Shown piece after piece: positions 6,557-20,467 of a DNA stretch of 36,757 bases (its first letter is position 1; every line of letters begins with the position of its first letter). The stretch covers positions 1-36,757 of the forward strand of contig CANRHV010000024.1 of assembly GCA_947630505.1 (NCBI GenBank). Reading direction: 5' to 3'. Position numbers and translations under genes: made by a program. Under the pieces are notes generated by a model that saw nothing but the letters and a program-made list of their open reading frames with translations, made no database searches and was not told the origin of the DNA. The DNA comes from an uncultured Monoglobus sp. (GTDB lineage Bacteria > Bacillota > Clostridia > Monoglobales > Monoglobaceae).

Positions 6557-8442
6557 ATTTTAACTTCCGTTCCGCTTTTCAGATGTTGTTTTATTTTCTC
6601 GGCGATCTTCTCGGCCGAGAGTCCGTATTTGTCCTCAAGCTCGCTTATCCTGCCCTGGCATATGGGCTCGTCGGGATAGGCGCACTTGAGTATCCTCATA
6701 CCGAGCGCCTCCTCAAGTATCATGCCGAATCCGCCGCTTAAAACGTTGTTCTCGACCGAAACGACGAGCTTTGCCCTTCTCGCCGCTTCCTCGATCGGGC
6801 GCTTGTCAAACGGCTTTATCGATACCGCGTCGGCCACGGCCGCGGAATATCCCGAATCTTCAAGGATACGCGCCGCCTCGACCGCGTTTTTGAGCATTAC
6901 GCCGACCGATACTATCAAAACGTCGGGCCGCTCGCGGTCAATTATAATTCTCGGCCGCGGACGGATATTTTCGGAAAGACGCGGCACCTCGGCGCCTATG
7001 TCCGCCTCGCTCAGGGCGGCTCCTCTGGGATAGCGCACCGCCCCGGGCCCGCCGCTGTTTATAAGATATTTGAGCATCGGCTCCAGATCGTCGGCGATCG
7101 CGGGGGAGAGTATCGTCATTCCGGGCATGTGCGACAGATATGATATGTCATACACGCCCTGGTGGGTCTCGCCGTCTCCGCCCACCGGGCCCGAGCGGTC
7201 GACCGCGAGCACGACCGGCAGCTTCTGGAGCGCGACATCGTGCAGCAGTTGATCGTAGGCCCTCTGCAAAAACGTGGAATACACCGCGAAAACCGGCCTC
7301 ATGCCGCCTCTCGCCAGGCCCGCCGAAAAGGTGACGGCGTGCTGTTCGGCTATACCCACGTCGAAAAACCGCTCGGGATATTTTTTCGCGAAATTCTTGA
7401 GCCCCGTTCCGTCGGGCATCGCCGCGGTGACTGCGGCTATTCTATTATCGCTCTCCGCGAATTTGCAAATTGTCCTGCCGAAAAGGCTTGACCAGCTCTC
7501 GCCGCCCGAGCCCTTGTGCAGCTTTCCGCTCTTTATGTCAAAGCTGCCCACGCCGTGGTACAGGTCGGGGTTGGCCTCGGCGGGCGGATAGCCCTTGCCC
7601 TTTTTGGTGCGCACATGAATAAACACGGGCTTGGTCGCGGTTTTGGCGTAGTCGAACACTGCCTCCAGATGCTCTATATCGTGGCCGTCCACCGGGCCCA
7701 TATAGAAAAATCCCATGCTCTCAAACAGCGAGCTGCTCTCGACCATCACGTTTTTGATGTCGTTTTTAACGCGGCTCAGGCCTTTTTTGGTGGGCGCGCC
7801 GAGTATGGGAATGTTGTCGAGCGCCGACTTGACGTCGCCCTTGAGCTTTAAGTACTTGCCCGCGTTTCTGAGTTTTTTCATCGCGCGGGAAAAGCCGCCC
7901 ACGTTTTTTGATATCGACATGCCGTTGTCGTTATAAACTATTATCAGGTTTTCGGAATTATGCCCCGCGTGATTCAAGGCCTCGTAGGCCATGCCGCCCG
8001 TCATGGCGCCGTCGCCTATGACCGCTATGCTCGATCCCTTCTCGCCTCTCAGCTCCTTGCTCTTGGCGATGCCGAAGGCCGCCGAGATCGAGGTCGAGCT
8101 GTGGCCCGTGTTGAACGCGTCGCGCTTGTCCTCCTCGTATTTGGGAAAACCGCTGAGACCGCCGAATCTGCGCAGCGTTTTAAAATCCCCGCCTCTGCCG
8201 GTGAGGATCTTGTGGGCGTAGCTCTGGTGGCCGACGTCCCAGACTATGCTGTCTCCGCCGCCGATGTCAAACGCTCTGTGCAGCGCGACGGTCAGCTCAA
8301 CCGCGCCCAGAGACGAGGCCAGATGTCCGCCGCGGCGCGACACCGCGGAGATTATGAAATTTCTGATCTCGGCCGAAAGCTCATTAAGCTCATCATAGCT
8401 CATGGCCTTCAAATCAGTCGAGGTATAATTCTGTTTTAACAT
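6553..8442 (-). CDS. dxs: 1-deoxy-D-xylulose-5-phosphate synthase
   Basis: Condenses pyruvate and glyceraldehyde 3-phosphate to DXP, the first step of the MEP isoprenoid pathway, using thiamine diphosphate. Visible signatures are GHQSYAHKILTGR, the TPP-binding GDGAMTGGMAYEALNHAG with NDNGMSIS, and the C-terminal transketolase domains (DVGIAEQHAVTFSAGLA, and SVENNVLSGGFG). I chose the ATG at 8442 (629 aa) because MLKQNYTSTDLKAMSYDELN aligns with the usual Dxs start. A TTG at 8469 would add nine residues (MLLYRYYFI) and has GGAG ten bases upstream, so it remains possible. First gene of the dxs-tlyA-nadK-recN group, with a 4-base overlap into tlyA. xseB and ispA, often upstream of dxs, are absent. 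Confidence 0.96.
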   Translation of the reverse strand: MLKQNYTSTDLKAMSYDELNELSAEIRNFIISAVSRRGGHLASSLGAVELTVALHRAFDIGGGDSIVWDVGHQSYAHKILTGRGGDFKTLRRFGGLSGFPKYEEDKRDAFNTGHSSTSISAAFGIAKSKELRGEKGSSIAVIGDGAMTGGMAYEALNHAGHNSENLIIVYNDNGMSISKNVGGFSRAMKKLRNAGKYLKLKGDVKSALDNIPILGAPTKKGLSRVKNDIKNVMVESSSLFESMGFFYMGPVDGHDIEHLEAVFDYAKTATKPVFIHVRTKKGKGYPPAEANPDLYHGVGSFDIKSGKLHKGSGGESWSSLFGRTICKFAESDNRIAAVTAAMPDGTGLKNFAKKYPERFFDVGIAEQHAVTFSAGLARGGMRPVFAVYSTFLQRAYDQLLHDVALQKLPVVLAVDRSGPVGGDGETHQGVYDISYLSHMPGMTILSPAIADDLEPMLKYLINSGGPGAVRYPRGAALSEADIGAEVPRLSENIRPRPRIIIDRERPDVLIVSVGVMLKNAVEAARILEDSGYSAAVADAVSIKPFDKRPIEEAARRAKLVVSVENNVLSGGFGMILEEALGMRILKCAYPDEPICQGRISELEDKYGLSAEKIAEKIKQHLKSGTEVKI

Positions 8443-18488: not shown

Positions 18489-20240
18489 TTATTTTTTCAA
18501 ATTTATATACTCGGCTGTGTCGGTTATCGGTTCGAGACTTCCGTCTTTGTTCCACACGAACACCTTTATATGGTCGGCTTTCGCGTTGTTTTCAAGCGTG
18601 CCTTGTATATTCCTTCCGTCGTAATCCGCGATATAACTGTCGATCAGCGCGTCGTTTTTGTCATAAAGCGCCACGTATACCTTTGATTTCTGCTTTTTGG
18701 TCGGCTCAACCAGATTGTCAAGATTTGTGCTTATCTCGATCCTGTCATTTTGAACAACGACCTCGCTCACGGGCATATCGTAGTTATAGTGAATAGAAGC
18801 ATTGAGAAGCGGCTCATTATATGTGCCCATTTTTATATTATTCCACTCCTGCTCCGTTCCTATATAATATACGTCTTTCAAACCGGTGCAGTCCTTAAAC
18901 GCACCACCGTCAATTCTTGTCACGCTGTTTGATAAAGTCACGCTTGTTAAATCAGTATTGCCACTAAACGCATCTTCATCGATCCATGTCACACTGTCGG
19001 GTATATTTAGGCTTGTTATTCCTTTACAGTAGTAAAACGCACCATCGCCAATCTTTGTCACGCCGTTGGGTATATCGACATTTCCCGGCGTGATGTGGCA
19101 GCGCTGAAAAGCACTGTTGCCTATATACTTTAAATTTTTAGGCAAATTGACTTCCGAACCGTAAAAAGCACTATTTTCAACCCTCTCTACGCTGTCGGGC
19201 AGTATTACTTTATCCGCGCCCGGGTGAGCGTACCGATACCCGAAAAATTCGGAACAAATCGATCTCGTTCCTTCTTTTATTTCAACAACAGTCGGAACAG
19301 GATAGCCTTTATAACCGAAAGCAATATCCCCTATATAAACAACTCCGTCGGGTTGATTATCATACCATGGAAGAGTGCCGTCACTCTCATAACTTTGACC
19401 TTCTATGCTGATCAGACCGGAAGGGAATTTAATATCGGCCAATTTCCTGCAATACGGCAAGATCGTGCCTATATACTTCACGCTATCAGGAAAAACAAGT
19501 TTGGTGATATTTTCATTATGCTCGATGGATCCCGGCCATTCTTGTGATTCTTTCGCAAATATTTCGTCGGCGACAACTCTCACTCCGTCGGGTATTATTA
19601 CCTCTTTGCCGCTGCCCGTATATTCGACAAGTATATCGTCTCCCAAAAATCTAAAATCGCCCTTTTGACTTATTAAAGGTGTTCCCTTAAAAGCAAATAG
19701 ACCGATATTCGTTAGGCTTTGGGGAATATTCATCTTTTTAAGCTTTGAGCATCCTTCAAAAGCGCATTCACTTATTCCCTCCAATGTGTCGGGCAAATTA
19801 ACCTCCGACAAATTTACGCAGCCCGAAAAAGCATATGAACCTATATAGGTTAATTCGTCGGGTAAATTAACTTTTGACAGATTGACGCAGCCCGAAAAAG
19901 CAGAAGATCCTATATCGTTTAATTCATCGGGCAAATTAACTTCCGACAAATTCACGCAGTCCTTAAACGCGCCGGAACCTATATAAGTTAGTTCAGCGGG
20001 CAAGGCCAACTTTTTTATAGCGGTCACATAGTCTTTCCATGGTGCGGTTCGTCCGTAACCCGACATATCATACATTGAACCGTAGCCGCTGATCGTCAGA
20101 GTTCCGTCCGAGTCAAACTCCCATGTCAAATCCATGCCGCATTCGCCGCTGTCTATTATTGACGCGGCGCTTGCGGGGGTGAATGTCAGCAGCGCGCAAA
20201 GCATTGCTAATACCATACTTAAACATAAAATCCTTTTCAT
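18489..20240 (-). CDS. Secreted leucine-rich-repeat (BspA-type) surface protein
   Basis: A 583-aa exported protein. Signal peptide MKRILCLSMVLAMLCALLTF with a cleavage site near ASAAS. Residues ~30-75 form the GxCGxxLTWEFDSDGTLTISG module commonly preceding these repeats. The bulk is LRR_5 repeats of the form LPDELxxIGSxAFxGCVNLSEVN, at least nine copies. Residues ~485-583 form a C-terminal module (VALYDKNDALIDSYIADYDG ... IKVFVWNKDGSLEPI) resembling the end of the pectate lyase at 1-2607. Function is unknown: probably surface binding or adhesion. ATG at 20240 after AAGGAGG; an upstream in-frame start (20282) lies inside the leader terminator and is rejected. Expression likely passes through the structured leader at 20241-20432. 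Confidence 0.9.
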   Translation of the reverse strand: MKRILCLSMVLAMLCALLTFTPASAASIIDSGECGMDLTWEFDSDGTLTISGYGSMYDMSGYGRTAPWKDYVTAIKKLALPAELTYIGSGAFKDCVNLSEVNLPDELNDIGSSAFSGCVNLSKVNLPDELTYIGSYAFSGCVNLSEVNLPDTLEGISECAFEGCSKLKKMNIPQSLTNIGLFAFKGTPLISQKGDFRFLGDDILVEYTGSGKEVIIPDGVRVVADEIFAKESQEWPGSIEHNENITKLVFPDSVKYIGTILPYCRKLADIKFPSGLISIEGQSYESDGTLPWYDNQPDGVVYIGDIAFGYKGYPVPTVVEIKEGTRSICSEFFGYRYAHPGADKVILPDSVERVENSAFYGSEVNLPKNLKYIGNSAFQRCHITPGNVDIPNGVTKIGDGAFYYCKGITSLNIPDSVTWIDEDAFSGNTDLTSVTLSNSVTRIDGGAFKDCTGLKDVYYIGTEQEWNNIKMGTYNEPLLNASIHYNYDMPVSEVVVQNDRIEISTNLDNLVEPTKKQKSKVYVALYDKNDALIDSYIADYDGRNIQGTLENNAKADHIKVFVWNKDGSLEPITDTAEYINLKK

Positions 20241-20432
20241 AAAAATATACCTCCTTGAAAAATAAAAAGTGTTTAGCCTCAATCGAAGCTAAACACGAAA
20301 AACACATAGCTCCGATTGTCGCCAAACAAATTTATCACAATTATTCCTGCATGTGAATAAAGAGCTTGCATTTTTGCCTAAAGGCATAAAAATACATGCT
20401 AAGAATAATCGCAATTATTAAATTTGTTTGGC
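20241..20432 (-). promoter_or_regulatory. Structured 5' leader with antiterminator/terminator pair (candidate cis-regulatory RNA)
   Basis: Starting a few bases after the promoter at 20439-20467, the transcript first folds into a ~112-nt hairpin (20432-20321). Its arms GCCAAACAAATTTA and TAAATTTGTTTGGC pair perfectly over 14 bp, with inner stems ATTATTC/GAATAAT, GCATG/CATGC and GCC/GGC. A 12-bp antiterminator follows: CAATCGGAGCTA (20318-20307) with TAGCTTCGATTG (20291-20280), one G-U pair. Its 3' arm overlaps the 5' arm of a terminator stem, so the two cannot form together. The start codon follows with AAGGAGG. The architecture is that of a riboswitch or attenuator; I do not recognise a known class. 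Pairing is seen; the regulatory role is inference. Confidence 0.7.
20264..20296 (-). terminator. Leader terminator upstream of the LRR gene
   Basis: GTGTTTAGC (20296-20288), ten-base loop, GCTAAACAC (20277-20269), then TTTTTATTTTT. A complete intrinsic terminator placed before the ribosome binding site, competing with the antiterminator stem. Confidence 0.82.
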
Positions 20433-20438
20433 ATTTTC

Positions 20439-20467
20439 ATTCTATCACATTATCCCCAAAAGGTCAA
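20439..20467 (-). promoter_or_regulatory. Sigma-A promoter of the LRR gene leader
   Basis: TTGACC (20467-20462), 17 bases, TAGAAT (20444-20439). The predicted start is about at the base of the long leader hairpin, which supports the leader as one RNA element. Confidence 0.8.

Follow-up and report, generated by a model that had tools for sequence, protein, structure and literature searches.

The window analysed here is a stretch of 36,757 nucleotides from an uncultured Monoglobus sp. On its minus strand, a leader with a promoter, a hairpin, an antiterminator/terminator pair and a ribosome binding site spans positions 20467-20240, upstream of an LRR_5 gene. The question raised by this locus is whether the leader is a regulatory RNA and, if so, to which class it belongs. 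The original prediction described it as an unrecognised attenuator or riboswitch-like leader, and this was supported, as it has no Rfam match and its competing stems covary. Judged from sequence, the leader probably, although by no means certainly, belongs to a family of structured transcription attenuators, so far unclassified, that act in cis and occur in high copy number. The best reading of the leader RNA is a new riboswitch-like transcription attenuator family whose signal is unknown.

Structure of the leader

The features of the leader and of the gene that follows it are detailed in Table 1. The hairpin begins at 20432, which is also the predicted transcription start, 7 nt after the end of the -10 element. 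The hairpin extends from 20432 to 20321 (minus strand), with a length of 112 nt and a closing stem of 14 bp, confirming the arrangement originally proposed, in which the promoter start lies at the base of this hairpin. Folding of the whole leader gave a z score of -6.4 against 200 shuffled sequences, and one terminator-like site was detected in it, versus 0.2 ± 0.4 in shuffles.

Table 1. Features of the leader RNA and its downstream gene in the window.
Feature	Positions	Strand	Evidence
Promoter	20439..20467	-	TTGACC (20467-20462), 17-nt spacer, TG-extended -10 TAGAAT (20444-20439)
P1 5' strand, from predicted transcription start	20419..20432	-	fold, covariation
P2 5' strand, sequence variable, pairing conserved	20396..20414	-	fold, covariation
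P3 5' strand GUAUUUUU	20388..20395	-	fold, covariation, partner swap
P3 3' strand and junction AAAAAUGCAAGCUCU (pseudoknot 5' strand)	20361..20375	-	covariation
P2 3' strand	20335..20354	-	fold, covariation
P1 3' strand	20321..20334	-	fold, covariation
Antiterminator 5' arm CAAUCGGAGCUA	20307..20318	-	fold, covariation
Pseudoknot 3' strand GGAGCUAUGUGUUUUU, overlapping antiterminator 5' arm	20298..20313	-	covariation, partner swap
Antiterminator 3' arm UAGCUUCGAUUG, inside terminator 5' arm and loop	20280..20291	-	fold, covariation
Terminator hairpin, 12 bp, loop GAUU	20269..20296	-	fold, covariation of the family T helix
Terminator U-run TTTTTATTTT	20259..20268	-	terminator search
RBS AAGGAGG	20250..20256	-	sequence
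Secreted protein, 583 aa, signal peptide-like N-terminus, BspA-type LRR_5 repeats	18489..20240	-	

The antiterminator (CAAUCGGAGCUA/UAGCUUCGAUUG) has 12 bp and a computed energy of -14.9 kcal/mol, nearly equal to that of the terminator, GUGUUUAGCUUC-GAUU-GAGGCUAAACAC followed by U5AU5 (12 bp, computed -16.1 kcal/mol). Both structures have bases in common and are thus mutually exclusive. This exclusivity and the 12-bp antiterminator had been anticipated, while the terminator, taken at first for a stem of 9 bp, had been undercounted. A transcript prefix of 156 nt, ending past the antiterminator, folds as the antiterminator; the full leader folds as the terminator. The duplex energy of the pseudoknot was -13.4, versus -7.7 for the P3 hairpin that it would displace.

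Comparison with known RNA classes

No match at the gathering threshold of Rfam 15 (4227 families) was obtained, either for the window or for the RNA of 18 relatives, in agreement with the initial impression that none of the classes considered fits, and a permissive search of Rfam gave no credible sub-threshold match. In particular, neither T-boxes (specifier loop, T-box bulge) nor protein-bound antiterminators of the RAT/ANTAR type were matched in Rfam. A description of the leader RNA family was not found in the literature. Fremin and Bhatt (2021; PMC8040213) listed 3161 candidate structured RNAs of human microbiomes from gut metagenomes, most of them without a name. In the passages of their main text that were consulted, no description of the leader RNA was found; the supplementary table was not covered, and it is possible that the RNA is an unnamed entry among those candidates.

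The leader RNA shares with terminating riboswitches its position as a 5' leader, a closed aptamer-like domain that has conserved junctions and a pseudoknot, an antiterminator and a terminator that exclude each other, and a ribosome binding site past the U-run. It differs from them in lacking an Rfam class and a known ligand, in starting directly at the promoter, in a copy number that reaches about 30 per genome and in its targets, which are for the most part small accessory proteins or proteins that are secreted or lie at the surface; tandem copies, each with a promoter, are also unusual for riboswitches. With the PyrR leader (RF00515) it has in common the logic of anti-antiterminator, antiterminator and terminator, but it scores only 19 bits against a cut-off of 54 bits, and no pyrimidine genes were found downstream in the cases examined.

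The c-di-GMP-I and c-di-GMP-II riboswitches (RF01051, RF01786) exist in multiple copies and, in Clostridia, are known regulators of surface and adhesion genes. The leader RNA is likewise multi-copy and associated with surface genes, but without an Rfam match to these classes. No GGDEF match (E ≤ 1e-10) was obtained in 27/79 RNA-positive genomes versus 42/212 RNA-negative ones, several of the RNA-positive genomes without a match being more than 95% complete. Because these 27 genomes lack a GGDEF match, c-di-GMP was rejected as the general ligand, and it is an unlikely general signal. The diverse genes downstream of the RNA point to no ligand.

Distribution of the RNA family

A BLAST search of the window's own genome with the leader retrieved eight clear copies plus weaker ones. 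Ten own-genome copies, whose stems differ in sequence and retain their pairing, were used as seeds of a first covariance model, which detected the RNA about 28 times in this genome of 2.7 Mb and gave matches in 35/38 genomes and 9/9 genera of the same bacterial family. With a second covariance model, matches were obtained in 79/291 genomes and 50/181 genera of a sample of the class; no more than 9 candidates per genome were scored in this search, so that its copy numbers are at least those counted, and the E-values of the models are rough. Among gut Clostridia, a single genome can carry as many as about 30 copies. The leader RNA is thus, beyond what had been predicted, a multi-copy family spread over a bacterial class. 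Exact-pattern matches with names were mostly from metagenome-assembled Monoglobus, Oscillospiraceae, Ruminococcaceae and other Clostridia, many of them from the guts of ruminants or other animals.

Of 398 genomes sampled across the phylum, most of them near-complete, only that of the window gave a match, the other 397 none. This scarcity among well-sequenced, isolate-like genomes could be the reason that earlier surveys overlooked the RNA. A complete single-contig genome of the same genus (G005) gave one weak match (E 6.7e-6), versus 10-37 matches in most other members of its genus that were searched.

Plasmids yielded no match. On phage origin, which was rejected, an exact-pattern scan of viral contigs gave no match either; of two matches labelled 'Bacteriophage sp.', the contig of one looks chromosomal and carries yicC, and that of the other has a phage integrase gene. 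At locus L134, a Gut-1 sRNA (RF01706; 1910-1981, minus strand) lies about 250 nt from a family copy.

Covariation among members

Counts of covariation were based on an alignment (A4) of 112 distinct members. The covariance model alignment favours P1, P2, P3 and the terminator helix (T); neither the pseudoknot nor the antiterminator formed part of the model, and both were tested separately. The shuffle controls ignore the relatedness of the members, and no tree-aware covariation test stands behind the counts.

P1, P2, P3 and T were paired in 95.5% of cases; double changes were found at 31 of the 37 pairs, and the double-change cells numbered 638, versus 158 ± 9.5 in shuffles. P1 alone was 98% paired, with double changes at all 12 consensus pairs, and the T helix was 97.4% paired, with double changes at 8/9 pairs. 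The pseudoknot, formed by AAAAAYGCA-x-GCUCU (P3 3' strand and junction) and the linker GGAGC-UA-UGCRUUUUU, comprises 14 consensus pairs that were 96% paired, decreasing to 35-63% when the register was slid; its double-change cells numbered 61 (20.6 ± 5.1 in shuffles). The same linker was 89% paired with the 5' arm of the terminator as the antiterminator, with 43 double-change cells (19.5 ± 3.4 in shuffles).

An alignment-independent comparison of own and swapped partner strands favoured the own partner for P3, the pseudoknot (-15.8 vs -13.4, sd 0.19), the antiterminator (-16.7 vs -13.5, sd 0.27) and the terminator (-14.4 vs -10.2), with little or no difference in two control strand combinations. 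A loss of the competing stems in homologous leaders would have refuted attenuation; both are kept with compensatory changes. The pseudoknot, which links the folded domain to the antiterminator, had not been foreseen in the original prediction. The columns of the U-run are invariant among aligned members, and bases of the junction and linker are highly conserved (e.g., C222 and A223, at ≥95%) and could be part of a binding site. Comparative evidence alone indicates a conserved structured domain joined to an expression platform.

In a second sub-type, the linker is AUCAAGCUGCGUUUUU and the apical sequence AAAAACGYAxGCUUUGAU; the pseudoknot is retained there, although its sequence differs (loci L042, L044, L054 at 1726-1881, L075, L077, L079, L121 at 7199-7354 and L122 at 7244-7405).

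Genomic context

A ribosome binding site and an open reading frame lie just 3' of 98 of the 154 distinct copies, about two thirds; 21 are orphans, with a convergent gene next and no obvious reading frame, and 35 are unresolved. In the class-wide sample, 31/40 copies precede an open reading frame. The downstream genes mostly encode secreted or envelope proteins. LRR_5 proteins accounted for 24/55 in the first sampled set, which is biased towards the window's genus; in the class-wide set, Cu_amine_oxidN1 (6/31) and LRR_5 (5/31) were found together with CHAP, SLH, M23, NlpC/P60 and dockerin. By a crude measure, a hydrophobic N-terminus was present in 41/55 and 19/31 downstream proteins of these sets, versus 5/25 large reading frames of the window. 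In the own genome, 11/28 copies precede LRR_5 genes, of which there are about 28 in total (Fisher p about 7e-16, assuming 2500 genes). The proposed link with LRR surface proteins is therefore real, both on this count and on that of the first sampled set.

Other downstream genes were observed repeatedly. Copies at L031, L039, L074 and L075 of the own genome are followed by a small AbrB/MazE-like protein carrying a zinc ribbon at its C-terminus; those at L141, L144, L146, L150, L162 and L168, in other families, a small cysteine-rich protein with an ECCCDECNY-like motif; and those at L062, L064, L067 and L069 a small protein starting with MxDYKKLYxxxFN. Behind some orphans (L145, L056, L060, L063 and L034), an apparent inverted remnant of the P1 3' strand and linker was seen, clear in only a few of them.

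The copies could instead be primarily free non-coding RNAs of about 165-180 nt, with their own promoter and terminator, acting in trans or binding a protein, so that the downstream genes receive only leakage through the terminator. An extended -10 at a fixed distance is shared by most members (TGN in 112/154, mode 4 nt from the model start), and 17 instances of tandem units were found, mostly 42-61 nt apart, about one promoter length, each unit with its own promoter. Orphans retain the antiterminator pairing with their own partner (-16.3 vs -12.8 swapped, sd 0.63). These own promoters, tandem units and orphans leave a role as a free molecule open, and it is possible that the RNA also functions independently. 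As the primary function it is nevertheless unlikely, given the position of about two thirds of the copies directly before a ribosome binding site and reading frame, the strong bias in gene family and a covarying antiterminator that the terminator of a plain sRNA does not need. Loci with tandem promoter-RNA-terminator units include L052, L054, L060, L062, L066, L103, L121, L130, L135, L138 and L176, the last with three in a row.

Proposed mechanism

According to the attenuator reading, each unit would be autonomous, consisting of a promoter, the closed P1-P2-P3 domain, the linker and an intrinsic terminator. Comparative sequence analysis gives the linker two alternatives, pairing either as a pseudoknot of at most about 15 bp, with the P3 3' side and junction, or as the antiterminator, with the terminator 5' arm. 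Because both require the same bases of the linker, formation of the pseudoknot should lead to termination. It is inferred that, when the folded domain takes up the linker as the pseudoknot, no antiterminator can form, so that the terminator forms and the gene is off, and that with P3 closed the linker would form the antiterminator and the surface-protein gene be transcribed. The balance would be set by a cellular signal, a small molecule, an ion or a protein; the signal is unknown and sensing, whether of a ligand or of a protein, is an inference. An off-switch with the signal stabilising the pseudoknot is slightly favoured. One strand is common to P3 and the pseudoknot, the form present in the signalled state is not known, and the signal-stabilised state is likewise inferred. 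The attenuator reading, regulated read-through included, is without expression or biochemical data and stands on comparisons among members.

We suggest only tentatively that this is a new riboswitch class with an unidentified signal, in which the choice between pseudoknot and antiterminator governs how BspA-like LRR and other surface proteins are displayed, the orphans being stand-alone regulatory RNAs. If true, it would be among the more abundant classes in uncultured gut Clostridia, occurring in about a quarter of the sampled class genomes. An unclassified RNA regulon of such size would show control of surface display in these largely uncultured bacteria, and riboswitch biologists would gain an orphan class with more than 100 sequences and a well-defined structure for ligand testing.

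Antitermination might be set not by a small ligand but by a dedicated RNA-binding protein, in the style of BglG/LicT, ANTAR or PyrR, a sub-case of the attenuator reading whose confidence overlaps with that of the latter. The long conserved sequence of linker and junction and the competition between terminator and antiterminator are compatible with it. We consider it improbable, as neither PyrR, at 19 bits at best, nor any other Rfam leader exceeded its cut-off, and as the AbrB/MazE-like protein, the only regulator-like protein repeatedly found downstream, has strong relatives, in the sample searched, only in the window's genus. For this reason, the AbrB and zinc-ribbon protein was rejected as a class-wide partner.

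A repetitive palindromic mobile element (MITE or REP-like) with an incidental fold would account for the many copies and for the weak reverse-strand matches, which the imperfect inverted repeat produces; it was rejected because of the covariation and is very improbable. Stems change wholesale in sequence with pairing kept and loops conserved, a terminal repeat would not explain the covarying linker pairings, and one strand, that bearing the promoter, is strongly preferred. Ribosome-mediated attenuation through a leader peptide, hardly credible in spite of the fitting terminator/antiterminator architecture, was not supported: P1 starts at the predicted transcription start, which leaves no room for a ribosome site, and Shine-Dalgarno-like sites before an internal start occur in only 8/154 RNAs, at scattered positions.
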